Shown piece by piece: positions 4,758 through 39,564 of a DNA stretch of 64,000 nt; position 1 is the first letter of the stretch; each line of letters opens with the position of its first letter. The DNA is taken from assembly GCF_001887355.1 (NCBI RefSeq), contig NZ_MPIN01000022.1, positions 1-64,000 on the forward strand, read 5' to 3'. The translations under genes and the position numbers were made by a program. Below the pieces are notes generated by a model. The model worked only from the letters and a program-made list of their open reading frames with translations, was not told the DNA's origin and did not search any database. This DNA is from Cystobacter ferrugineus. Its GTDB lineage: Bacteria > Myxococcota > Myxococcia > Myxococcales > Myxococcaceae.

Positions 4758-5984
4758 TCATGACTGCCTCACCAACCCCTCGTAGTCCTTGAGTTCGAAC
4801 GGCAGCGTCAGTGCACCGAAGTCGGGGAGGCCATCCGCGGCGCCGTTCTCTCCTTCGTCCGTCGGTTCGCCGACCGCCGGCGCTTGCAGACTGGCGTTCT
4901 GCTCGTGTTGCTTGACCGCCATGTCCTGATTGCGAATCACGTAGTCGCGCAGAGCGCTTTCATACGAGGTGATGCCACTCGCCAGGTCATCCTTGTGCCT
5001 GGCGAGTTCACCGGCGAGAACGTACGCGCCCACCATTGCGACCGACGTGCCCTGTCCCGATGCCAGTGCGACGCTGTATCCCGCGTCGCCGACGAGCACG
5101 ATGCGTCCGCGTGACCAACCCTCCATGCGGATTTGGCTGATTGAATCGAAGTGGAAGTCGGGCGCCGTCATCATGTGCTCGACAATCTGTGGTAGCACCC
5201 ACCCGCCGCCCGAGAGGCGCTCGGCCATGAGGCGCTTCTGAGCCACGATGTCACGGTAGTCGTACTCGATAGGCTCGGCGGCCGTGAAGCCGACATACGC
5301 CCGCGCGTTGGCATCCTTGCGTAAGGCCATGACCATCGCGCCGACACCGGTTCCCTCGTCCTGGTACATGACCTCCCAGCGCTCGAGACCGAGGAAGTTC
5401 GGCATGCCGAAGACCGCGATGTACGAATTGCCAAGACGGCGGAGGAACCGCGGCTCGGGGCCGAACGCGAGCTTCCGCACCCGAGAGTGCAGGCCGTCTG
5501 CGCCTACGATGAGCTCGAAGCGGCGAGAAGCTGCGCGCTCGAACGTAACGTCGACCCCCGACGTGTTCTGAGTGAGCGACGCGACCGAATCGTCGAAGAG
5601 GTACTCCACCCGGTTGCCCACTACCTCGTGCAGCACGCGGCAAAGGTCGTCGCGCATGATTTCAACATCAGGGCTCTCGAAACGCCCGCCCGTGAGGGTG
5701 CGCTCCTCGCTCCGGTGTGTCTCCTTGCCGTTGGCGTCGACCATCGAGAACCCCGTCAGCCTGGTGCTGTGCTCGCGGAGCCTGGCGAGGATGCCCATAC
5801 GTTCCGCGACCGTGAGCGCCGGCCCACGCACGTCGAGCGCCTGCCCACCCGGACGCAGGTGTGGCGCACGTTCGACGACGGTGACGTCGAAGCCGTAGCG
5901 CGCAAGCCAGTAGGCGATGGTGAGACCGGAGATGCTGGCGCCGGAGACCAGCACGCGGGGGAACCTTGGAGTCGTAGAGGACAT
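4758..5984 (-). CDS. FAD-dependent monooxygenase (class A, TetX/PHBH-like)
   Basis: The 408-residue product is predicted to insert one oxygen atom from O2 into an aromatic or polyketide-like substrate using FAD and NAD(P)H in the cytosol. The N-terminal Rossmann fold is visible (VLVSGASISGLTIAYWLA, residues ~10-30, followed by VVERAP). The FAD motif GDAGYSVALASGQGTSVA is at about residue 295, and a DG motif (VGADGLHSRVRK) lies in the middle. Length is normal for the class. I chose the ATG at 5984 because it starts the flavin fold; the open frame extends to 6146 across the promoter of the divergent LysR gene. Divergent LysR/monooxygenase pairs usually mean substrate-induced control. The substrate cannot be told from sequence. 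Confidence 0.85.
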   Translation of the reverse strand: MSSTTPRFPRVLVSGASISGLTIAYWLARYGFDVTVVERAPHLRPGGQALDVRGPALTVAERMGILARLREHSTRLTGFSMVDANGKETHRSEERTLTGGRFESPDVEIMRDDLCRVLHEVVGNRVEYLFDDSVASLTQNTSGVDVTFERAASRRFELIVGADGLHSRVRKLAFGPEPRFLRRLGNSYIAVFGMPNFLGLERWEVMYQDEGTGVGAMVMALRKDANARAYVGFTAAEPIEYDYRDIVAQKRLMAERLSGGGWVLPQIVEHMMTAPDFHFDSISQIRMEGWSRGRIVLVGDAGYSVALASGQGTSVAMVGAYVLAGELARHKDDLASGITSYESALRDYVIRNQDMAVKQHEQNASLQAPAVGEPTDEGENGAADGLPDFGALTLPFELKDYEGLVRQS

Positions 5985-6024
5985 GGAACCTTGGGTACAC
6001 TTCCGGAATCGAACCGTCCAAGAC

Positions 6025-6039
6025 ATTGATTGAACGAAT
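6025..6039. promoter_or_regulatory. Candidate LysR T-N11-A box
   Basis: The 84-bp divergent gap contains ATTGATTGAACGAAT, an imperfect dyad with T-N11-A spacing, in an AT-richer patch. LysR-type regulators commonly bind such boxes between their own gene and the target. Confidence 0.4.
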
Positions 6040-6068
6040 ATGATACCTCTTGAGCAACGATAGAACTC

Positions 6069-7028
6069 ATGGAACTCCGACATCTGCGCTACTTCGTCAC
6101 CATCGCCGAGGAGCAAAGCTTCCGTCGCGCGGCCGGGCGACTCCACGTCTCACAGTCGCCGCTGAGCCGGCAAATGAAGGACCTCGAGGACGAGATGGGC
6201 GTTGAACTCTTCGCGCCCGAGGGGCGAGGAATCAAGCTCACGGCTGCTGGGAAGATTTTCGCGGAGAGAGCCAGAAGCATCCTTGGGAGCGTCGACACGG
6301 CCATTGAGGAAGCCAAGGGAATCGCCGAAGGCAGACTTGGCACCGTGGTCATCGGCTTTGAAACGGGGACGACCTTCGTGGGTGCATTGTTGTCCCTCGT
6401 CGCGGCGCTTCGCCGACGAACGCCCCGTGTCGGCCTGCAACTCGTCCCCATGAGCAGCCTCGAGCAGTGGACGGCGCTGAGGCAGGGGACGATTACCTTC
6501 GGCTATGGTGCATACGCGCCCAGTGACGACTCCTTGGGTCACCTGGAGATGAGCCGTGACCGGCTCGGGGTGCTTCTCTCCTCTGAGCATCGGCTCGCAC
6601 GACTCGAGAAGATCCGGCTTCGAGACCTTGAGAACGAGCGCGTGCTACTCCAGCCACGTCATCTCTATCCGCGGCTCCACGCGGACATCATCATGGCGGC
6701 GCGCGCACAGGGCGCGACGCTGCACGTGACGGCGGAGGTGCTCGACCTGGAGGCGCTCCTGGCACTGGTCGTTATCGGCGACGCGATTACCTTCCTGACG
6801 GAGAAGTTCTGGGAGCCAGCATCGCAAGCCTCATTGATGTGGCGGCCCGTAGAGGACCTCCACATCAACCTGAGTGAGTTCGTCACATGGCGCGTGGAGG
6901 ACGCCGACACGCCCGTGGTGCGAGCGCTGCTCGAGAGTGCACGCGAAGTGAGTCCGTTCCTGCGAGGCACTGCGGACCGCACGCGCTCCTCCACGGCCGC
7001 CCAGCGAAAACGTCACAGCAAGCGCTGA
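6069..7028 (+). CDS. LysR-family transcriptional regulator
   Basis: The 319-residue product starts with the canonical LysR opening (MELRHLRYFVTIAEEQSF) and helix-turn-helix (RAAGRLHVSQSPLSRQMKDL, residues ~20-40), followed by LFAPEGRGIKLTAAG and a periplasmic-binding-protein-like effector domain to about residue 300. A basic Ser/Arg-rich tail ends the protein. It is divergent from the FAD-monooxygenase and probably controls it and itself. The effector is unknown. Confidence 0.93.
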   Translation: MELRHLRYFVTIAEEQSFRRAAGRLHVSQSPLSRQMKDLEDEMGVELFAPEGRGIKLTAAGKIFAERARSILGSVDTAIEEAKGIAEGRLGTVVIGFETGTTFVGALLSLVAALRRRTPRVGLQLVPMSSLEQWTALRQGTITFGYGAYAPSDDSLGHLEMSRDRLGVLLSSEHRLARLEKIRLRDLENERVLLQPRHLYPRLHADIIMAARAQGATLHVTAEVLDLEALLALVVIGDAITFLTEKFWEPASQASLMWRPVEDLHINLSEFVTWRVEDADTPVVRALLESAREVSPFLRGTADRTRSSTAAQRKRHSKR

Positions 7029-7110
7029 GCGTCTCAATTGCCTGGGCTGCTCTCCCTGGAGGAGCGCGGCAGGGGCCCTGGGTTTCTTGAAGAGTGATGG
7101 GGGGAGGGGT

Positions 7111-9141: not shown

Positions 9142-10224
9142 CTACTTCGCGATCTTCCGGATCTTGCCCTCGCCAGCCCAGTAGACCCCCGTGCTGTCCA
9201 CGGCGAGGTTATAAGACTCGCCGGTGGACGCCAGGACCTGGGCGCCGGTGCCGTCCTTGCACATCGCCCGGAGGGCTGTTCCATCGAGCCAGTAGATCCT
9301 CTCGCTATCGACGACGACCCTCGTCCCCGTGGCAGCGAGCTTGACGGCGGTGCCGCCGCTCTTGGGAATTCTGTAGACCCCGCTCGCGGCGTAGTAGACG
9401 TTGGCGTCGTCGAAGTCGAGATACCAGCTCGTACGAGTGAGCTTGATCGGCGCCGAGGCGCCAGACTTGGACGCCTTCATGGTGGAAAGCAGGGAGCCGA
9501 GCTCGCGATAGTACAGGCTATCGCCGTCCGCGAACAATGACGTCCGCAGCCCGCCCTGAACAGGATCATGAGGGACGACCAGGGAAGCGGTCCCGCCCGA
9601 GAGCGGCTGGGCGTAGATGTCGTATTTATTGTTGCCGATCCAGTAGATACGGGTCGAGTCCACCGCCACCCCCGACGGGTAGCCGCCGGTGACCGGCAGC
9701 GCGGTGATGGTGCCGTCAGGGTTCACCCTGTTCAAGTTGCTCCCGAGGCCGCGACCACTGCCGGAGAAGTAGGCGTATGGGCCGCTTCCCACGAGCTCGG
9801 TCACGTAGGTGAGCCTATTGATGAGGGTGGTCTTCGCGCCGCCGGCCTTGGGGACCCTGCCTACCTCGTCGTTGCTGACCTCGGAGCCATAGCCGCCGCC
9901 GTAGTACACGTACTGGTCCGTCAGCGCGATCTCGATTGCGCCGTTGGTGTTGATGGTCGCGAGATCGATGGGGGTGCAGCTCCCATTGCACAGCGGCGCG
10001 CACGCGAGGGTGGTGTCACCCCCTGAGCCTTCGCGGAGCTCGAGCGCGCTCTCTGCCTGGCCTTCCTCCAGACTCGCGCCCGCGACGCCCGCCTCGCCGG
10101 GCGAGCCGCCGCAGCCGGCCAGAGCGGCGGAGAGGAGGAGGGCCGAAGCGGCGTGAAACGAGGGCTTCGTGCGGGTGAGGGCTTCAGCTTGGGAGGGTTG
10201 ACGAGCTGCCGTATCTTTTCTCAT
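9142..10224 (-). CDS. Secreted lipoprotein with beta-propeller-like repeats
   Basis: The 360-residue product has an N-terminal export signal and lipobox (LLLSAALAGC, Cys ~38). Repeated blades of about 40-45 residues follow, with the pattern aromatic YY/IYW then SGGTxxxL (YYGGGYGSEVSN, RIYWIGNNKYDIYAQPLSGG, NVYYAASGVYRIPKSGG, RIYWLDGTALRAMCKDG, GVYWAGEGKIRKIAK). This resembles the DUF5050/NHL-like propellers that myxobacteria carry in large numbers. It probably sits on the cell envelope and binds a ligand or partner; no enzyme motif is seen. A ribosome site (AGGG) precedes the ATG. It lies downstream of the GH5 gene but behind a strong terminator, so it probably has its own promoter. Confidence 0.75.
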   Translation of the reverse strand: MRKDTAARQPSQAEALTRTKPSFHAASALLLSAALAGCGGSPGEAGVAGASLEEGQAESALELREGSGGDTTLACAPLCNGSCTPIDLATINTNGAIEIALTDQYVYYGGGYGSEVSNDEVGRVPKAGGAKTTLINRLTYVTELVGSGPYAYFSGSGRGLGSNLNRVNPDGTITALPVTGGYPSGVAVDSTRIYWIGNNKYDIYAQPLSGGTASLVVPHDPVQGGLRTSLFADGDSLYYRELGSLLSTMKASKSGASAPIKLTRTSWYLDFDDANVYYAASGVYRIPKSGGTAVKLAATGTRVVVDSERIYWLDGTALRAMCKDGTGAQVLASTGESYNLAVDSTGVYWAGEGKIRKIAK

Positions 10225-10290
10225 GTGGATACCCTGTCAGGATGGAACGCACAAACCATGCGTTCTTTCGTCGTGCGTTCGTTATCGGTG

Positions 10291-10328
10291 CGGGCGGGAG
10301 GCCCCGGGAACTTCAGGCCTCCCGCCCG
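10291..10328 (-). terminator. Strong hairpin terminator after the GH5 gene
   Basis: GGGCGGGAGGCC (10292-10303) and GGCCTCCCGCCC (10316-10327) are a perfect 12-bp inverted repeat with one further C-G pair outside and a 12-nt loop. It begins 8 nt after the stop of the GH5 gene. Confidence 0.75.
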
Positions 10329-10335
10329 TCGCGGA

Positions 10336-11457
10336 TTACTGCAACAGCTTCTGCTTGATGAATGCGCCGGAGGGCGTGAGGGCCGAGTCAGGCCAGTTGC
10401 CGGTGGTGCTCGCGCCGGGGACGAGCGCGGAGGCGGTCTCGGGCTTGTCGTGCAGCGACCAGTTGGCCCAGCTCAGCTTGCGGCTGTTCATGAAGTCGAT
10501 CCACCGCCCGGTCTCGTCGAGTTTGAGATTGCCATTGCCGGACGCGTCGCAGGTGCCGAACTCCGTCACGAACAGGGCGATGCCCTTGGACAGTGCCGCA
10601 TCCGCCCTGTCGCGCAGCCATTGCCCGTGCGTGCCCGCGTAGAAGTGCAGCGTATAGGCCACGTTGGGGTACTGGGTGATGGGGTTGCTGGCGGCCGCGT
10701 CCACTCCCTGCGACCAGGTCGGCGTGCCCACCACCACGAGGTTGGGAGCGCCGACGCCGCGGATGGCGCCAATGATTTCCACGGCGTAGGCGCGCACCTC
10801 GTTCCAGGACTCGTAGTCCGGCTCGTTGAAGATCTCGAAGATGACATTGGGGGTGTTCTTGTAGAGCTGCGCCATCTCGGTGAAGAACGCCTTGGCCTGC
10901 GCGGTGTGCTGCGTGGCGTTGTGATCATGCCAGTCGATGATCACGTAGATGCCCTTGGCGATGGCCGCGTCGACGACGGTCTTCACCCGGGCCTTCTCCG
11001 CCGCGGGGTTGGTGAGATAGCCGCCTTCCTCCACGCCCATGGCGGCGCGCACCACGGTGACCTTCCAGTTGTCCGCGAGCGAGTTGACGACGGAGGCGTT
11101 GTAGAACGCGCCGCCCCACTGGCTCCAGAAGAGGCTCATCCCCTTGAGCTGGACGGCCACGCCATTCTGGTTCTGGATTTGATTGCCCACCACCTGGAGC
11201 TTGCCATTCGTGGCCACGGGTGAGGCCACGGGCGCCGGAGTCGGGTTGGTGGGATTGGTTGGCGTGGCCGGGTCGGTCGGAGTGGCGGGAGAGGTGGGGG
11301 TGGTGGGGCCAGGCTCTACCACCACTGGAGGCTGTTCCCCGGGAGGGGGCGGCTCCTGGATCCCGCACCCGCCGAGGAGCGACAGGTGGAGGACCGCCAT
11401 ACACAGACCCCGCCAGCCGCTCAGACTCCTATCGCCTGAAACCGGATTCCTCTTCAT
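10336..11457 (-). CDS. Secreted GH5-family endoglucanase-like glycoside hydrolase
   Basis: The 373-residue product starts at an ATG with GAGAGG 5 nt upstream. A lipoprotein-type signal (MAVLHLSLLGGCG) is followed by a Pro/Thr-rich linker with TPTSPATPTDPATPTNPTN repeats, then a GH5 (cellulase A-like) TIM barrel. Visible landmarks are VQLKGMSLFWSQWGG, VRAAMGVEEGGYL, YVIIDWHDHNA, the acid/base Glu in VIFEIFNEPDYESW, and the nucleophile Glu in ALFVTEFGTCDASG. It likely cleaves beta-1,4-glucans or related plant or microbial polysaccharides outside the cell, tethered to the outer membrane by its lipid. Confidence 0.88.
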   Translation of the reverse strand: MKRNPVSGDRSLSGWRGLCMAVLHLSLLGGCGIQEPPPPGEQPPVVVEPGPTTPTSPATPTDPATPTNPTNPTPAPVASPVATNGKLQVVGNQIQNQNGVAVQLKGMSLFWSQWGGAFYNASVVNSLADNWKVTVVRAAMGVEEGGYLTNPAAEKARVKTVVDAAIAKGIYVIIDWHDHNATQHTAQAKAFFTEMAQLYKNTPNVIFEIFNEPDYESWNEVRAYAVEIIGAIRGVGAPNLVVVGTPTWSQGVDAAASNPITQYPNVAYTLHFYAGTHGQWLRDRADAALSKGIALFVTEFGTCDASGNGNLKLDETGRWIDFMNSRKLSWANWSLHDKPETASALVPGASTTGNWPDSALTPSGAFIKQKLLQ

Positions 11458-30857: not shown

Positions 30858-31063
30858 GGGGCGGGCATCCTACAGAGCGAAGCCGCGCTCGCAACCGGAA
30901 CGCTCCGGGAAGGCGCCGGGGCGTGGCGGCGCAAGCGTTCAGTCCCCCACGCTCCTCGGGCGCGGATGGGTCGGAGGGGAACCATACGATTCCGGCTATC
31001 GTCAGACCTCCTGGGTCCCCCGCGTACTCGGGCCCGGGAGCGCTGCTCGTCCAGGAGGAAGCC

Positions 31064-34000
31064 ATGGCCGCCGTCATCAGGGATGTCGTCGTGTTGCTGC
31101 CCGGTCTGCTCGGCAGTGTACTCAAGCGGGACGACAAGGAGATCTGGGGCCTGTCCGGTAGCGCCATCTTCCGAGCCCTCTTCAGCGGCGCGGCCAGCGT
31201 GAAGTCCCTCGCCCTGAAGTCCGACAGCGGGGGCGAGCTCGCGGATGACGGGGTGGAGGCCACCGCGGTGCTCCCCGACACGCACCTCATCCCCGGCTTC
31301 TGGAAGGTGGATGGCTACACCCGCGTGGCCGAGACGCTCGTGAGCCGGCTCGGCCTCATCCCGGGCGCCAACTTCTTCGAGTTCCCCTACGACTGGCGGC
31401 GCGACATCCGCCTCGCCGCGAAGCGGCTCGCCCGCGAGTCCGCGCGCTGGCTGCACACCTGGCGCAAGAGCAATGGCGGCTCGCCCGACGCGCGGCTCAT
31501 CCTCGTGGGCCACTCCATGGGTGGCCTCGTCTCGCGCTACTTCCTCGAGTGCCTCGGCGGGTGGAAGGACACGCGCGCGCTCATCACCTTCGGCACGCCC
31601 CACCGCGGCTCCCTCATGGCCCTGCAGGCGCTCGCGCTGGGCTTCCGCAAGGATCTGGGGCCGGTGAACCTGGTGGACCTGTCGGACATGGTGCGCTCGC
31701 TGCCCTCGGCGCACCAGCTCCTGCCCATGTACCCGTGCGTGCGGCTGGCGGACGGGCGGCTCGTGCGTCCGGGCGAGGCCCAGGGCCTGGGTCAGCTCGA
31801 TCCCGTGCGCGCCGCCCAGGGTCTCGCCTTCCATCGGGAGATCGAAAGCGCCCTGGCGACGAACGCGAGGAGCTCCGAGTACCTCGAGCGGGGCTATCAC
31901 CTCTACCCCGTGGTGGGCACCTTCCAGCCCACGTTGCAGGGGGCTCGGGTCAGCGCGTCTGGGGCCGTGGAGATGCTGACGAGCGAGCCGGATGGCACGG
32001 ACCACGCCGGTGATGGCACGGTGCCGCGCGTGTCCGCGCTGCCGCTGGAGGAGCGCGGCCAGCTACGCGCCATGTACAGCCCCACCTCCCACGCCTCGCT
32101 GCAGAACGCCTTCGAGGTGCTGGCGCACGTGGAGGGCCTCGTCACCGGCCAGCACCTCGCGCTCGACAAGTACCGCGACTCACTCTTCGGGCCCGCGCCG
32201 AGCATGCTCTCGCTGAGCATGGAGGACGCGTTCGCGCACGACGAGCCGGTGGTCATCCGCGTGCGTCCCTCCACCGAGACCGTGTCGCTGCGGGCGTACG
32301 TGTCCAACGTGAAGACGGCGGAGTCCTTCTCGACGCCGCTCGTCCGGGGGCCGGATGGGGTGCATGAGGGGACGTTGGCTCCGCTGCCGCCCGGGCTCTA
32401 CCGCGTGAGCGTCAAGGGCGGCCCCGAGGTCATGCCGGTGAGCGATGTCTTCGCCGTCTTCCACCGCGCCGGGGCGCTGCCCGAGGACGAGGAGGAGACG
32501 CTGGAGTTCGTGGTGGGCCAGGGGACCGGCTCGACGTCGGAGTGGCGCTCGGAGTCGCTCTCCATCCCGGTGACGGAGGAGGACCTCGCCGCGAAGCTCT
32601 CGGCGCGGGACGAGGGGCGCACCATCACCCGCTACCCCTCGGTGGAGCCGCTCATCCCCGCGCGTGCGGGACAGGCGCTGCCCGTGACGGTGGACCTGGC
32701 GCTCGTCGAGGTGGGTGCGGAGACGGAGTCCGCGGGGGTGTCGCTCTCCGGGCTCGCCGAGGACTGGAAGGAACTGCCCATCAAGGTGCGCCTGCTGTGC
32801 GCGGAGATGACGTTCCGGCCGGGGGCGGACACGGGGGTGGTGCTGGTGCGGCGCAATGACAGCTCCATCGCCGCCACCCTCACCGGCACCGTCAACGCGG
32901 GGGCCTCGGGCGAGCTCTCCCTGGTGGCCACCTTCGAGTACGAGGGGCGCTTCTGCGGCGCGGCCCGCCGGCGCATCCCCGTCGAGTCCTCCGGCACGGG
33001 CAGCCCGGGTCCGGGTCCGTCGCGTACCCCCTCGGCGTCCTCGTCCGGCGGGGGCGTGCTGGTCTCAGGGCGGGAAGCGGAGGAGGAGCGAGGGGTCTTC
33101 TCCCTGGACGCGGGGGCCCAGAAGCCCCACCTGACGGTGCAGATCCACCGGTTGGATCCCTCCAACCCCCAGCGGCTGTATTGGATGCTCCACGTGGGCG
33201 TGCCGTGTGAGGGATTGCCGGCCCGGCTCTCCGGAGACATCAACCTGGGCTCGGATCCGGCGGCGTTCTTCCAGAGCGTGGCGTCCACGGCGCGCGAGCT
33301 GCGCTCGGGCGAGCACTACGCCTGGTTCCTCGGGCTGGGCAAGCTGCTCTACCAGCGCACGCCCATCGCCTTCCGCGAGACGTTCAAGGCGCTGCGCCAG
33401 CAGTATGGGCCGGGCTTTCCCATCCAGTTCATCACCGATGATCCGCACGTGCCCTGGGAACTGATGGCGCCGGTGGACGTGCCGGGCGCGGAGCTGTTGT
33501 GCATGGAGCACCCGGTGGCGCGCTGGCTGCTCGACTACCAGACGTCGATGTCGGCGCGGCTGACGCAGGGGGACATCCTCACGGTGGCGCCGGACTACCA
33601 GTTCCACCCGCACCTGGCGCCCCTGCCGCAGGCGCAGGAGGAGTCGCGGCAGTTGTCCAAGCGCTTTCGCGCGGTGCGGGTGGCCGGAAGGCGCCAGCCC
33701 ATCCTGAGCCTGCTGACGGGGGGCTATCCGCGCGCGGTGGGCCTGCTGCACTTCGCCGGACACGGCAAGTACAGCGCGAACAACGAGGTGTCGCCCTCGC
33801 GGGTGTTCCTCGAGGATGGCACCCTGCAGACGCTCGAGGTGCGCAACTCGCTCACGATGCTGGGGCAGAAGTCGCGGCCGCTCGTCATCTTCAACGCCTG
33901 CGAGGTGGGGGCCGCCTCGGAGCTGCTGGGAGGCATTGGGGGCTGGGCGGAGACGTTCGTGAGCGAGCGCTTCGCGGGCTTCATCGCGCCCCTGTGGCCG

Positions 34001-34195
34001 GTGCAGGACGCTCACGCGCGCAGCGCGGTGGAGCACCTGGTGGCGGACCTGATGGAGCAGCGCATCAGCGTGGGCGAGTCGCTTCGGCGTCTGCGCGAGC
34101 GCGAGGCGAAGACGTCACCCACGTTTCTGTCCTACGTGTACGTGGGGGATGTGATGGCGCGCTTCTCCGCGCCGCACGCGCCTCCCAAGGCGTGA
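31064..34195 (+). CDS. LCAT-like lipase fused to a C-terminal CHAT caspase-like domain
   Basis: The 1043-residue product starts at ATG 31064, just after AGGAGGAAGCC. Residues 1-370 are a lecithin-cholesterol-acyltransferase-like lipase: VVVLLPGLLGSVL at the start, nucleophile Ser151 in LILVGHSMGGLVSRYF, and candidate Asp and His in DGTVPRVSAL and TSHASLQNAF. A middle part of beta-sandwich-like segments (~380-640) carries a low-complexity linker. The C-terminal third is a CHAT domain: FITDDPHVPWELMAP, His900 in LLHFAGHGKYS, Cys946 in VIFNACEVGAASELLGG, then FAGFIAPLWPVQD. The caspase-type His-Cys pair is intact. No signal peptide or membrane helix is seen, so it is probably cytosolic. CHAT proteases in bacteria are often effectors of conflict systems; an added lipase would be a second destructive activity. 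It converges on a NTPase/TPR operon. Confidence 0.85.
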   Translation: MAAVIRDVVVLLPGLLGSVLKRDDKEIWGLSGSAIFRALFSGAASVKSLALKSDSGGELADDGVEATAVLPDTHLIPGFWKVDGYTRVAETLVSRLGLIPGANFFEFPYDWRRDIRLAAKRLARESARWLHTWRKSNGGSPDARLILVGHSMGGLVSRYFLECLGGWKDTRALITFGTPHRGSLMALQALALGFRKDLGPVNLVDLSDMVRSLPSAHQLLPMYPCVRLADGRLVRPGEAQGLGQLDPVRAAQGLAFHREIESALATNARSSEYLERGYHLYPVVGTFQPTLQGARVSASGAVEMLTSEPDGTDHAGDGTVPRVSALPLEERGQLRAMYSPTSHASLQNAFEVLAHVEGLVTGQHLALDKYRDSLFGPAPSMLSLSMEDAFAHDEPVVIRVRPSTETVSLRAYVSNVKTAESFSTPLVRGPDGVHEGTLAPLPPGLYRVSVKGGPEVMPVSDVFAVFHRAGALPEDEEETLEFVVGQGTGSTSEWRSESLSIPVTEEDLAAKLSARDEGRTITRYPSVEPLIPARAGQALPVTVDLALVEVGAETESAGVSLSGLAEDWKELPIKVRLLCAEMTFRPGADTGVVLVRRNDSSIAATLTGTVNAGASGELSLVATFEYEGRFCGAARRRIPVESSGTGSPGPGPSRTPSASSSGGGVLVSGREAEEERGVFSLDAGAQKPHLTVQIHRLDPSNPQRLYWMLHVGVPCEGLPARLSGDINLGSDPAAFFQSVASTARELRSGEHYAWFLGLGKLLYQRTPIAFRETFKALRQQYGPGFPIQFITDDPHVPWELMAPVDVPGAELLCMEHPVARWLLDYQTSMSARLTQGDILTVAPDYQFHPHLAPLPQAQEESRQLSKRFRAVRVAGRRQPILSLLTGGYPRAVGLLHFAGHGKYSANNEVSPSRVFLEDGTLQTLEVRNSLTMLGQKSRPLVIFNACEVGAASELLGGIGGWAETFVSERFAGFIAPLWPVQDAHARSAVEHLVADLMEQRISVGESLRRLREREAKTSPTFLSYVYVGDVMARFSAPHAPPKA

Positions 34196-34225
34196 GGCGC
34201 GGGCGCCCTGAGTCCCGGTAGGGGC

Positions 34226-36724
34226 TCAGGGCTGCCGTGCGTTGTCTGACACCTGCGCGATGGCTTTGAGCCTATCGATGAATCTTGGCGGCGTGGATCG
34301 TGCCAATCCTGGTGCCTGATCGAGTAGTTTCAATGCTGCTCTTGCGGTCTCGTTGGCTTGAGGATTGTTCAACTCCTGCTGGAGGGTGGCCAGGGCGCTG
34401 AGCTTTTGAAAAATGTTGGCGTCTGCATCTCGTGGAATATTCATGATGATTTCTGACACGCGCATGACAACGGGCTCCATCTCAGCGGTGCGGCTTTGTC
34501 TCCAGAGGACAAGCGCGAGACTCAAAAGTATCGAACTGAGTGCGATTACCCGAGAAGTACTGCTCTGTTCAACGAGTACGATGGCGCGGCGCAGTACGTT
34601 CTCCGCTTCATGATAACGACCTTGCAAGATGAATGTGTTTGCGAGTTGTTCAAGTAGTTTCTCTTGCAGCTCGTTGAAGAGTGGCGCGGCAAGGGGCAGG
34701 CTGTTTCGAATGAGGAGCGCCTGATTTAGTATTTTCTCTGCTTCGTCGTATTTGCCCTTGTCAATTAGAATAGAGGCGAAGATGTTCATGAGCCTGGCAT
34801 GGAAAATGTCCAGCGTCTGTTGCTCTGGCTGGGAAGAAATTACTGCTTGTCGTAGGAGTTCTTCCGCTTCGCCTAGCCTACCCTGTCGGCCTAGAATCTC
34901 GGACAAATCATACAGAGCCTCTATGTACGCCAGATGGCTGGTTCCTAGCGTGCTGCCTATGATGGACAGCGCTTCCTTCACAGCAGACTCGGCTTCCGCG
35001 GTCCTACCACTGTCCATGAGGACACAAGCGAGTTCCTTGAGGAATTCGCCAAGGTAGATCCGGTCCTCGACAGAGCCCGTGGGATGGTCCTTCAATGCTT
35101 GATGAATAGCAACTTCTGCCTCGGCATGCTTCTCCTGCTTGCGTAGAGCGCTAGCCAGTCTGTGAAGCAGCCGCCTTCGTGATGAGTCGATCTGAGGATA
35201 GGTCTGCGGGAAGCGAGAGAGTTCGTGTCGAAGTAGTTGTTCCGCTTCGTTGTACTTTCCCTGCTGGAAGACCACTGCGGCCAATTCGAGTACGAGGGCG
35301 GAACGTTTAGCTTCCTCTGTATCCAGAAGCCGTGCGTCACGAAGTTCCTCCTGGAGGAGCAGTTCTGCCTCCTCTGGATGTCCCTTCATCAAGCGCACAT
35401 GTGCGAGCATGTTTCGTGCGCCAATCCATCCCTTCGCGAGAGCTTGCCGTGACCAGTGTTCAGCTGCATCCAGGTCGGATAGCTGTTCGGCCAAGGTTGC
35501 CAGCGCGCTCCATTTTTCGGGTTGATCAAATTTCCGCAGGAGCATCAATTCGACGGCGCATGATGACTCTTCGGTCAAAATGGAAGGTAAAGCGTTTGCT
35601 GGAATGAAACTCGAGAAGGTGCCGAACCATGCCGTCCAAATGGAGAGGTCTGTAGATACTGGCTGCTGTTGCTCAGTTATTGTCTTGCCCAGGGCGAGGA
35701 ACTCCTGGAGGCAGAGTTCGCGGAGCCGTGCCAGTGTAAATGCACGCGGGACAAAGGGGGCCGCTTCTCCTCGAAGGATGCTGGCAGTGTTTGTCTCTCT
35801 GGGAGACAGGCGCTCCACTTTGGAATTCGAAGAGGCTGAGTTCCTGACAGGGCCCTCGGTGTAATACGGCCCCTGCGACTGAATCACTGCGAGGGCTTCG
35901 GGTTCGCAGTCGTGGAGTGCCGCGACACGACCGGGGAAACTCACCCCTGCGCTTTCGAGCCGCTCGCGTGCTTCTCGAATATTCATCATCCGCCCATGGA
36001 CAGGCCACCAACCCGGTGAGGGCGCGGCGGGCTCTACCAGGATGGCGCGTGTCCGGTGGCCTGCCTCCGCATGGGCCCAACGGACCCGGCGCAGCCGAAA
36101 ATGGCTGTCCACATTCGTCCAAGCGATCCACGCGTGCCGGTGCTCACGAATTTCATCCGCCATCTTCGAGTAGGGCAGGGCCGCACTGACTTCGTGCAGC
36201 TTCCCGTGGGGGCGCGCGGTGGCGAAGGCCGCCCGGAGATCGCCCCCCGTCCAGATGATGCCTGGCGCCCGGGCCGCGAGGACCGTGCGAATCCCCGCGA
36301 CCGCGAACCGGGGCGGCCGGTTCGGGCACTCCACCCGATGGGAGATCCAATCGAAGAAATCCACGGCCCGTTGCGCGAGCGCGATGGTCGTCTCCGTGTC
36401 GCAGAAGAGCACCACCTTCAGCTCTCGCTGAGCGAACAGCGGACGATTGATGTTGAGCCAGTCCGCGTCCTCCACGCGGGGGACGAGCACCACCGTGGAG
36501 CCGTGCGGAACCTCGAGCATCCGCCGCACGTCGGTATGTACATCCAGCTCCGGATGCTCTGGCACCAGCGCCTCGACAAGCTCGCCGAGCGCCTCCTGGC
36601 GGGCATGATCGACCAGGAGCAGCAGTCCCGAGCGCGACAGCCTGAGCGCGAACTTCAGGGCGTCGAGCCAGCGTTCCTCAGCCGCACGAGGTGCATCATC
36701 AGGAGGGGATGGGGGTAGTACCAT
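34226..36724 (-). CDS. TPR-repeat protein with N-terminal domain of NTPase-associated type
   Basis: The 832-residue product overlaps the upstream NTPase gene by 70 bp. Residues 1-270 are a mixed domain with LLLLVDHARQ, STVVLVPRVEDADWLNINRP and LKVVLFCDTETTIALAQRAV, but no Walker motifs; the pattern N-R-x-L...VVLFC...F-x-W recalls degenerate NTPase-associated domains of STAND-type sensors. Residues ~400-800 are TPR repeats of about 40 residues (QGKYNEAEQLLRHELSRFPQ, QGRLGEAEELLRQAVISSQP, KGKYDEAEKILNQALLIRNS). The TPR-encoding half (34.2-35.9 kb) is far poorer in GC than the first half. TPRs would be the ligand-sensing or partner-binding part. The gene ends 30 bp from the lipase-CHAT stop. Confidence 0.78.
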   Translation of the reverse strand: MVLPPSPPDDAPRAAEERWLDALKFALRLSRSGLLLLVDHARQEALGELVEALVPEHPELDVHTDVRRMLEVPHGSTVVLVPRVEDADWLNINRPLFAQRELKVVLFCDTETTIALAQRAVDFFDWISHRVECPNRPPRFAVAGIRTVLAARAPGIIWTGGDLRAAFATARPHGKLHEVSAALPYSKMADEIREHRHAWIAWTNVDSHFRLRRVRWAHAEAGHRTRAILVEPAAPSPGWWPVHGRMMNIREARERLESAGVSFPGRVAALHDCEPEALAVIQSQGPYYTEGPVRNSASSNSKVERLSPRETNTASILRGEAAPFVPRAFTLARLRELCLQEFLALGKTITEQQQPVSTDLSIWTAWFGTFSSFIPANALPSILTEESSCAVELMLLRKFDQPEKWSALATLAEQLSDLDAAEHWSRQALAKGWIGARNMLAHVRLMKGHPEEAELLLQEELRDARLLDTEEAKRSALVLELAAVVFQQGKYNEAEQLLRHELSRFPQTYPQIDSSRRRLLHRLASALRKQEKHAEAEVAIHQALKDHPTGSVEDRIYLGEFLKELACVLMDSGRTAEAESAVKEALSIIGSTLGTSHLAYIEALYDLSEILGRQGRLGEAEELLRQAVISSQPEQQTLDIFHARLMNIFASILIDKGKYDEAEKILNQALLIRNSLPLAAPLFNELQEKLLEQLANTFILQGRYHEAENVLRRAIVLVEQSSTSRVIALSSILLSLALVLWRQSRTAEMEPVVMRVSEIIMNIPRDADANIFQKLSALATLQQELNNPQANETARAALKLLDQAPGLARSTPPRFIDRLKAIAQVSDNARQP

Positions 36725-38013
36725 TCGGATTCGTTCGGGTAGGGCAGCAGGGTCTGGTAGCTGAGCAGATCCTGGGCAAGCGGGTTGGCTGGCAGTTGGT
36801 GTGCTGGGTCGTTCGCGATTTCCTCCAGCAACTCGATATGCCCCTTGTTCAGTCCGGTCTCTCGCAGCCGCCGTTGATGGTCCAGGATCTTACGGACGAG
36901 TTCTTCGGTAGCGCTCGGCGCATCCGTCAGCCACGCTTCCTTGGCCAGTTCCCGGATGAACCGCACGAAGTCTCGAGCCCGGCCGCCCGAGCGGTAGGCG
37001 AGCTGCTCGAGCAGCGGACGGGAGATGAGGGAGGCTCCGTCGATGTCGCTGGTGCGCCGCTCGAACAGGTCGCAGAAGAAGTGGACCCCCTCGCCGTGCC
37101 GGGTCGGATCCTCATGCAGCAGGACGGGTTCATTGACCAGGGCGAGCGGCTCGAAGCCCCGGACAGCCGCGGTCGAGGGGTGGTGCCGGAGCGCGAAGGG
37201 AGCACAGACGACCACAGGGCAGGCGAGCTGCGCGATGAGCTGGGAGTCGACGAACAACTCCCGGGCGCGCTGGATATCGCGGATCCGATCCAGACCATCG
37301 ATGACGAAGAGCACCCGGCGGTGGTCATGCTGGATCTGGCCGACGAGCACGTTCACGCAGGCCAGCAGCGTCTGCACGTGGGTGTCCTGATCGGGAAGTG
37401 TCTGCTTGCTGAGGCCCAGTGGCGCCATCCACTTGGTGATGGCTCCGACCATGCCCCCGGTGACCGTGAACCCCGTGGCGAGTCCCATGCCGGTCGTTCC
37501 CTCGACCAGGGCGGGAACGGTCGTCGCCATGACGCTCAGGGTCGCCTTCGCGAGCGCTGCAATGTCCAACTGGGCGGGTGGCGTGTCCGTCGCTCGGGCG
37601 AGGGCGTTCCACGCGGTCTTGAGATCCTCGATGTAGGCCTCGGGAAACTGGTACCCGAGCCGTTGCTGCGCGGTGGCGATCAGGGCCACCCCCGCGAGGA
37701 AGCAGACTTCCCAGGAGCTGATGCGATCGAGCGCGGCGGGATCTCGTACGGCCTCGGTGAACTGGCGCGCCAGATCGAGAAAGACCACCAGCTCTCGATC
37801 CTTGCGCGCTTCCGCCATGCGGAGCAGTTCCGTCGTCTTCCCCGTCCCCACCGTTCCTGTGAGCAAGATGCGGGGGTCCCCGAACGGCATGTCCAGGAAC
37901 TGGATGATCCGCCCAGCGGGGCTGTGGGGCCGCTCGGCCCGCCAGCGGCTGTCGGCGGGGCGCTCCGGATCGAACCGCTGGTATAGCTCCTGCCACACGT
38001 CACGACGCGACAT
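36655..38013 (-). CDS. P-loop NTPase (AAA/STAND-like)
   Basis: The 452-residue product has Walker A at residues 53-60 (ILLTGTVGTGKTTELLRMAE) and Walker B at about 233-241 (RRVLFVIDGLDRIRD), followed by sensor-like helices (SGGRARDFVRFIRELAKEAW). A hydrophobic stretch (TTVPALVEGTTGMGLATGFT and onward, ~164-200) could contact membrane or be a buried insert. It heads the two-gene operon with the TPR protein. Together they look like an ATP-driven switch and its sensor. Regulation is not visible: about 100 bp separate it from the P450 gene downstream of its promoter side. Confidence 0.8.
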   Translation of the reverse strand: MSRRDVWQELYQRFDPERPADSRWRAERPHSPAGRIIQFLDMPFGDPRILLTGTVGTGKTTELLRMAEARKDRELVVFLDLARQFTEAVRDPAALDRISSWEVCFLAGVALIATAQQRLGYQFPEAYIEDLKTAWNALARATDTPPAQLDIAALAKATLSVMATTVPALVEGTTGMGLATGFTVTGGMVGAITKWMAPLGLSKQTLPDQDTHVQTLLACVNVLVGQIQHDHRRVLFVIDGLDRIRDIQRARELFVDSQLIAQLACPVVVCAPFALRHHPSTAAVRGFEPLALVNEPVLLHEDPTRHGEGVHFFCDLFERRTSDIDGASLISRPLLEQLAYRSGGRARDFVRFIRELAKEAWLTDAPSATEELVRKILDHQRRLRETGLNKGHIELLEEIANDPAHQLPANPLAQDLLSYQTLLPYPNESEWYYPHPLLMMHLVRLRNAGSTP

Positions 38014-38117
38014 GTGGGCAACCTACCACCCGTTGCTTACCGGTGGGAGTTCGTAGCGGCTCGCTCCCTCGCTCCCCGCGTCCTGCCGGGTGGGCGGACG
38101 CGGTGGGGCGCTGGGGG

Positions 38118-39545
38118 CTAGAAGATGACGGGCACCCGGTCGAAGCCGCGCAGGCCGGAGCCGGTGTTCCACCGCAGCGACTCGAAGGGCACCGCCAGGC
38201 GCATGCGCGGGTAGCGCCGGAACAAGGTCTCGAAGGCGATCTGCCCCTCCAGGCGGGCCAGGGGCGCGCCCAGGCAGATGTGGATGCCCTTGCCGAAGGC
38301 CAGGTTGCGGTGCGCGTTCGGCCGCGTGATGTCGAACACGTCCGGGTTGGGGAAGTGCTGGGGGTCGCGGTTGGCCGACGCGAGCCCCACCGACAGCTTC
38401 TCTCCCTGGGCCAGGTGCGTGCCCGCCAGCTCCATGTCCTCCTTGATGATGCGCGGCGTGGACATGTAGTCGACCGGGCCCCAGTAGCGCAGCGTCTCCT
38501 CGACCGCGCCCTTGGACAGGTTCGTGGGGTCCGCCAGGAAGCGCTCGAGCTGATCCGGATGGGTGAGCAGCGCCACCACGCCGCTGCCAATCAGGTTCAC
38601 CGTCGTCACGTGCCCGGCGAAGAAGAGGATGAACACCATGGACACCATCTCCTGGTGGTTGAGCTTGTCCCCTTCGTCCTGGGCGTGGACCATCTGGCTG
38701 ATCATGTCCTCGGCGGGCTCGCGCCGCTTGCGCTCGAACACGCCATCCAGATACCGGGCGAACTCCCGCAGGCTGCCCCGCCGCAGCTCGTCCATCGCGG
38801 CGTCACGCCGATCCGCGCCGAGCAGGCTCTCCGCCCAGCCATGCACCTTCGGCCGATCCTCCTCGGGGATGCCGAGCATGTCGCTGATGACGGTGATGGG
38901 CATCGGGTAGGCGAAGGCGTGGAGCAGATCCACCCGGCGCTCTCCCTCCCGCTCTCCTCGCTCGGTGGCCGCGCGCTCCACCTGGTCGAGCAGGGTGTCG
39001 GTGATGCGCTGGATGCGCGGCCGGAGCATCTCCATGGCGCGCGCGGTGAAGTTGGGTTGGACGAGCTTGCGCAGCCGCGTGTGGTCGGGGGGATCCAACA
39101 TCAGCAGGCTGTAGGCCAGGGGGCGGATCTCCTCGGGCATGTATTGCAGGTTCGCGCGCTGTTCCGGCGTGAGGGATGTGCGGAAGTCGGACGAGAGGCG
39201 GTCATCGAGCAGGGCCTCCACCGCCTCGTCGTAGCGGGTCACGAAGAGGCGCTCCTTGGCCGGGAAGCCGCCGGACTCCGGCCGCTTCGTGCCTCCCGGA
39301 AGCACCGCGTCCGCGAAGCCGTGGCCGAACGAGGTGCGCACGACGGGGGCCTGGGCCCGCAGGTCCGCGTAGGTGGCGTACGCGCGGGCGAGGAACTCCG
39401 GGTCCTCCTTGTCGAGGAACGCGGGGCAGCGCGGCGCTTCCGCCAGGGCCTTCTCGCGCAGGGCCTTCATGGGGCAGGTGGCCTGGGGCGCGGGCCCACT
39501 TGTCTCCGCCTGCGTCGTCTGTTCGTTCACGGGATTCGTCGCCAT
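38118..39545 (-). CDS. Cytochrome P450
   Basis: The 475-residue product starts at ATG 39545 with GGAGG 7 nt upstream. It is a soluble bacterial P450: I-helix ILFFAGHVTTVNL, ExxR in EETLRYWGPV, and heme loop LAFGKGIHICLGAPLARLEG with the thiolate Cys. The N-terminus is about 40 residues longer than in many CYP107-type enzymes and has two Cys (ATCPMKALREKALAEAPRCP). It needs ferredoxin partners, none of which are nearby. It lies 19 bp downstream of a MarR regulator in the same operon, so substrate-induced expression is likely. Oxidation of a small lipophilic substrate is inferred. Confidence 0.93.
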   Translation of the reverse strand: MATNPVNEQTTQAETSGPAPQATCPMKALREKALAEAPRCPAFLDKEDPEFLARAYATYADLRAQAPVVRTSFGHGFADAVLPGGTKRPESGGFPAKERLFVTRYDEAVEALLDDRLSSDFRTSLTPEQRANLQYMPEEIRPLAYSLLMLDPPDHTRLRKLVQPNFTARAMEMLRPRIQRITDTLLDQVERAATERGEREGERRVDLLHAFAYPMPITVISDMLGIPEEDRPKVHGWAESLLGADRRDAAMDELRRGSLREFARYLDGVFERKRREPAEDMISQMVHAQDEGDKLNHQEMVSMVFILFFAGHVTTVNLIGSGVVALLTHPDQLERFLADPTNLSKGAVEETLRYWGPVDYMSTPRIIKEDMELAGTHLAQGEKLSVGLASANRDPQHFPNPDVFDITRPNAHRNLAFGKGIHICLGAPLARLEGQIAFETLFRRYPRMRLAVPFESLRWNTGSGLRGFDRVPVIF

Positions 39546-39564
39546 GGTGTCCTCCACGTTGGTG

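Follow-up and report, generated by a model that had tools for sequence, protein, structure and literature searches.

A GC-poor, variable C-terminal half behind a conserved N-terminal region in a TPR protein paired with an AAA+ ATPase

Gene T, an 832-residue open reading frame in the 64,000-nt stretch of DNA analyzed here (the window), is a mosaic in which a conserved N-terminal region is joined to a GC-poor half composed of a linker, TPR units, and a tail. The same mosaic recurs in relatives of T, where its boundaries are abrupt in two locus pairs and the number of repeats changes, and in the window it lies in an insertion shared with the gene for an AAA+ ATPase, P. On balance, we favor the reading in which P and T together make up a mobile recognition receptor, NLR-like but split in two, whose sensor half is turned over by selection for new specificities. 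The features discussed below are as follows:

30923..34195, plus strand: left flank, an LCAT/PGAP1-like hydrolase fused to a CHAT domain, outside the pair
34197..34240, no strand: inverted repeat with 20-nt arms, 80% complementary, a candidate terminator hairpin just past the T stop
34202..38071, no strand: insertion of ~3.87 kb holding P and T only; ends approximate; empty site in two congeners
34226..36724, minus strand: gene T; N-terminal region (residues 1-281), linker (282-~435), TPR array, and tail
34226..35881, minus strand: GC-poor variable half of T with linker, 6-8 recognizable TPR units, and tail; 27-32% identity
35882..36724, minus strand: N-terminal region of T, conserved (60-63% identical in 10 relatives)
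36655..36724, minus strand: P/T overlap of 70 nt, equal in length in every intact relative of the family
36655..38013, minus strand: gene P, a 452-aa AAA+ ATPase with Walker A (GTVGTGKT), Walker B (DGLDR), and GGRARDF motifs
38118..39557, minus strand: right flank, a cytochrome P450 gene, outside the pair

The GC step in gene T and its recurrence

The segment 34226-35870 has a GC content of 0.541 compared to a window mean of 0.688, about 4 SD lower (SD of 1645-bp windows, 0.037); it is the minimum at that length in the window, and comparably low segments start only at 34222-34274. A first-pass annotation had described the C-terminal part of T as poorer in GC than the N-terminal part and the neighbors, and this is what we observe: GC at fourfold sites is 0.84 in the N-terminal half and 0.56 in the C-terminal half (p=8.5e-10), and the neighboring genes have GC3 values of ~0.84 (P, upstream) and 0.93 (the CHAT gene, downstream). 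Plotted in 150-bp steps, GC3 is not uniform across T, at 0.68-0.90 over most of codons 1-250 and 0.54-0.68 over the remainder, and codon shuffling of T never yields a change point as strong as the observed one (0/500). P and the N-terminal half of T also lie below the host GC3 level of ~0.93.

The annotation had confined the low GC to the TPR half. The repeats are indeed poor (GC3 0.56), but the description is slightly too narrow: the linker (0.60) and tail (0.61) are equally poor, residues 282 to the end (34226..35881) have a GC3 of 0.58 overall, and the change point falls near codon 235 (~36019), within the end of the N-terminal region and ahead of the first TPR. Relatives carry a repeat array in this region, and low GC might simply follow from TPR sequence or from tandem duplication. 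This explanation, to which we give next to no weight, is refuted by eleven further TPR genes in this genome with GC3 of 0.85-0.99 across their repeats, including arrays whose neighboring 126-bp units are 88% and 94% identical and whose GC3 is still high; neither TPRs nor tandem duplication therefore account for the low GC of T. The effect also persists at fourfold sites and extends to the non-repeat linker and tail. The two homogenized arrays, L105 (G000:C9:112000-116500, 94% identity between adjacent 126-bp units) and L106 (G000:C1:1577000-1581200, 88%), with GC3 of 0.85-0.86, are separate TPR families. Elsewhere in the window, a further GC-poor gene (0.54-0.57, 385 aa) is found at 855-2012 on the minus strand.

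In a comparison set of one genome per species, the P-T pair is found in ten further loci spread over three related genera; the locus L035 is a paralog in the same genome as the window. GC3 steps down from the N-terminal region (0.74-0.87) to the C half (0.54-0.71) in all 11 family members, with P at 0.79-0.87; the step is significant at fourfold sites in ten, and the remaining member is truncated. More distant pairs occur in Polyangium, Paraliomyxa, and MAGs; the step is visible at fourfold sites in Paraliomyxa, and we saw no clear GC step in the Polyangium and MAG relatives. P is kept alongside T in 15 further loci, and every intact family member has a P/T overlap of exactly 70 nt. The paralog (L035:5837-9987; G000:C4:283836-287926) is a longer copy, with a C half ~31% identical to that of the window copy and a GC3 that is lower still, 0.54.

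The window pair is a clean insertion: in two congeners the CHAT-domain gene adjoins the P450 gene without the pair (empty sites at L071 6065|6068 and L072 6969|6968). The pair is also absent from G002 at the site shared by L035 and L036, so that presence and absence are seen at two sites. We found no transposase at the insertion and no convincing terminal repeats or target duplications at its ends. The absence of the insertion from two congeners is compatible with a foreign TPR segment having been joined a single time to a resident N-terminal part, or with low GC that only reflects a recent arrival of the entire insertion. As the sole cause this is refuted by the presence of the step in 11/11 members, at several sites and in three genera, and recent acquisition is further at odds with the far higher GC of P and the N-terminal region within the insertion compared to the C half; we regard it as improbable. 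The hydrolase-CHAT fusion on the left flank (30923-34195, plus strand) is unusual, and each of the four genomes from the genus retains it.

Divergence beyond codon 281

Compared to every relative, the first 281 residues of the window T are 60-63% identical and the rest 27-32%, the pattern of conserved N-terminal parts and variable repeats that the annotation had anticipated for orthologs. Closer relatives of T show 91-92% identity among themselves in the N-terminal region and 62-83% in the C half.

We compared synonymous divergence in three pairs of loci that share flanks. In L035/L036, which occupy one site in one genus, dS is 0.05-0.19 in the flanks, 0.22 in P, and 0.32 in the N-terminal region, then 0.92 in the linker, 1.39 in the repeats, and 0.82 in the tail. 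In L042/L043, it is 0.37 and 0.24 in the two nearest flanking genes (1.01 in a more distant one), 0.35 in P, and 0.46 in the N-terminal region, then 0.98 in the linker, 2.1 in the repeats, and 0.72 in the tail. The dS values in the array are inflated by repeat alignments; the linker, which aligns without gaps, is free of that fault. In both pairs, DNA identity in a sliding window stays at ~0.9 until codon ~281 and then drops to 0.4-0.75; it is regained just past T in L042/L043 and ~600 bp further on in L035/L036, where the DNA downstream of T, present in G002 and L036, has been lost or replaced in L035. There is no such step in L043/L044 (flanks mostly 0.12, P 0.33, N-terminal region 0.24, linker 0.19, repeats 0.23), and because this pair shows no drop, change in the C half is episodic.

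These data bear on whether the C half simply evolves fast in place, being less constrained or faster mutating, with no segment replaced. A tree of P plus the N-terminal region and one of the linker plus the tail largely agree, with branches several times longer in the latter, and dN/dS is higher in the linker (0.27-0.45) than in the N-terminal region (0.11-0.23), both as expected if change occurs in place. Against this, dS also jumps, from 0.32 to 0.92, in the gap-free linker; the boundaries are abrupt; and there is no jump in L043/L044, a pair with flanks almost as similar as in L035/L036. A uniformly raised mutation rate would not spare that pair. Since two pairs show a jump in synonymous divergence at a single place and the third pair shows none, replacement by diverged alleles fits better, and we consider evolution in place as the whole explanation unlikely; fast change in place could still contribute to the divergence of the C half. 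The annotation's proposal of replacement or rapid diversification of the repeats, with the switch part kept, is supported in its evolutionary part, both by the unequal conservation of the two halves of T and by the dS jumps in two locus pairs.

We found no strong conflict between the trees of the two halves of T, and an AU test of the P plus N-terminal tree on the C data gave p=0.043. The broad likeness of the trees counts against wholesale swapping between distant lineages.

Turnover of TPR units and their ligand-facing residues

T belongs among the TPR proteins: its tandem helical repeats of 34-42 residues fit TPR models, with the best evidence from Pfam TPR_12 (E=2.4e-28, 98.6 bits compared to a cut-off of 30.1) and matches to other TPR models as well. 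Recognizable units in the window T span residues 440-750, the first near 440-480, and are preceded by a linker of ~150 residues. Full 42-residue units number ~2 in L036, 6 in L041, 6-7 in L039, L042, and L043, and 9-10 in L035 and L040, so that a single site carries 2 units in L036 and 9-10 in L035. L043 and L039 each have six near-identical units (126-bp arrays); the 6-8 units of the window T are old and diverged, and we see no recent homogenization there. L036 (in G003) has an in-frame TAG in its ATPase gene (9194-10534, minus strand) near codon 188 of the matched frame; together with a T cut to ~2 full units, this possibly marks a decaying copy.

In L043, nonsynonymous change is focused at unit positions 3, 6, 9, 10, 28, 29, and 38, the first four of which are canonical TPR positions 6, 9, 12, and 13. 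Magliery and Regan (PMC1261162) count positions 9, 12, and 13 among the hypervariable positions that face the ligand. With a predefined ligand-face set (TPR positions 2, 5, 6, 9, 12, and 13), pN in L043 is 0.27 on the set and 0.05 elsewhere (p=0.002), and entropy pooled over 46 units is likewise raised on the ligand face (p=0.007); in L039 the enrichment falls short of significance (p=0.16). L043 thus combines near-identical repeats with variability at the ligand face, L039 does so in part, and the window copy does not. Given that pN/pS on the L043 ligand face is ~1.0 and not above 1, these substitutions suggest release from constraint or mild diversification rather than proven positive selection.

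Were the sensor mutated by a diversity-generating retroelement, as known from STAND systems in other multicellular bacteria (PMC10907252), the logic would be similar, with a conserved NTPase and a variable sensor. An RVT_1 search of the whole genome assembly gave no match, which excludes this mechanism as far as the assembly shows, and the variation extends to synonymous sites along 1.5 kb and to the copy number of whole units. We consider it the least probable of the explanations weighed here.

Predicted folds and a proposed split receptor

An AlphaFold2 model of the N-terminal region of T (pLDDT 84) has two Rossmann-like lobes, the first of which (residues 14-136) is predicted to superpose on AAA+ cores (2.7-3.2 A, Z 9-9.7), an AAA-like core lacking a P-loop. 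A Pfam search with this region gave no match, and PDB sequence searches with it and with P returned nothing significant. The model of P (pLDDT 76) is closest in fold to Orc1/Cdc6, the archaeal ATPase PAB2304, TnsC, CED-4, and the plant NLR core of NRC4 (Z 12-16.5); the scores against CED-4 and NRC4 are 12-14.5, and Orc1/Cdc6 and TnsC do equally well or better. We do not class P as a STAND NTPase, since the hhGRExE and GxP signatures are absent: the Walker A pattern was located in 14 family members, none of which has a GRxE ahead of the P-loop, and there is no conserved G-x-P past residue 260 of P. Nor did we find extra domains over its 452 aa. Effector, NTPase, and sensor do not share one chain here; the TPR sensor sits in T, separate from P.

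In our proposed mechanism, P would act as an ATP-driven nucleotide switch, and T would be the sensor subunit, with a TPR solenoid that reads a ligand. T would couple to P through its conserved N-terminal region, which we infer because the length of the overlap is fixed and the conservation of P matches that of the N-terminal region. Selection for new specificities would turn over the C half and alter its specificity by three possible routes: replacement of the segment past codon ~281 by diverged homologous alleles, gain or loss of whole 42-residue units, and substitution of concave-face residues. The conserved DNA of P and the N-terminal region may serve as a recombination anchor, and low GC3 may be the mark of a long-term turnover pool, whether by import or by weaker codon selection. 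We infer that P and T form a complex, that a ligand is recognized, and that the role may lie in immunity or kin recognition. More tentatively, the pair could be a split mobile receptor of social bacteria in which the AAA+ switch and docking frame stay fixed and the sensor half is swapped and re-expanded as alleles, a counterpart of polymorphic self/non-self loci that works without hypermutation by reverse transcriptase.

Several known systems resemble this arrangement. Fungal NLRs combine an NTPase switch with a TPR, WD, or ANK sensor whose repeats have high internal conservation (PMC4986451), and like P-T they show near-identical units, changes in repeat number, and variation on the interaction face. 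In contrast to them, P-T is bacterial, consists of two proteins rather than one, has no N-terminal effector domain, lacks hhGRExE in P, and has a ligand-face pN/pS that in L043 is ~1.0, not above neutrality. Bacterial STAND/Avs and bNACHT defense proteins (summarized in PMC10907252) likewise have an NTPase joined to a C-terminal sensor, in some cases a TPR, but they carry effector, STAND, and sensor on a single chain, whereas in P-T the switch and sensor are split, no effector was found, and there is no PADLOC match. STAND sensors diversified by retroelements (PMC10907252) share a variable sensor on a conserved NTPase in a multicellular bacterium; theirs are CLec domains altered by reverse transcription, whereas those of P-T are TPRs in a genome with no reverse transcriptase. 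Orc1/Cdc6, PAB2304, and TnsC share the fold of P (Z 13-16.5 over 230-305 residues) at only 10-17% identity, and no DNA-replication or transposition partners lie nearby. The TPR protein of the FxSxx-COOH system (NF040586) matches T at 52.6 bits, in the TPR part only, compared to a cut-off of 300 bits.

If our reading is true, it would reveal a route by which bacteria can diversify a recognition protein: TPR alleles are swapped and re-expanded while the switch in front of them stays conserved, with no retroelement. The boundary fixed at codon ~281 makes this directly testable by domain swaps, and in myxobacteria both kin recognition and phage pressure can be assayed.

We rejected a defense island as the setting of the pair: the loci are flanked by ordinary metabolic, kinase, and transport genes, and in L041 the hits to PD-T4-6 trace to a generic Ser/Thr kinase. 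PADLOC models of known anti-phage defense systems matched only at E 0.02-0.03, and no effector domain was found; these results weigh against the proposed receptor. The inverted repeat at 34197..34240 has no T run, making it a tentative terminator. In the Paraliomyxa relative (L023, ~5724-7058), the ATPase has a degenerate Walker A, GTSGSGLS, without the lysine.
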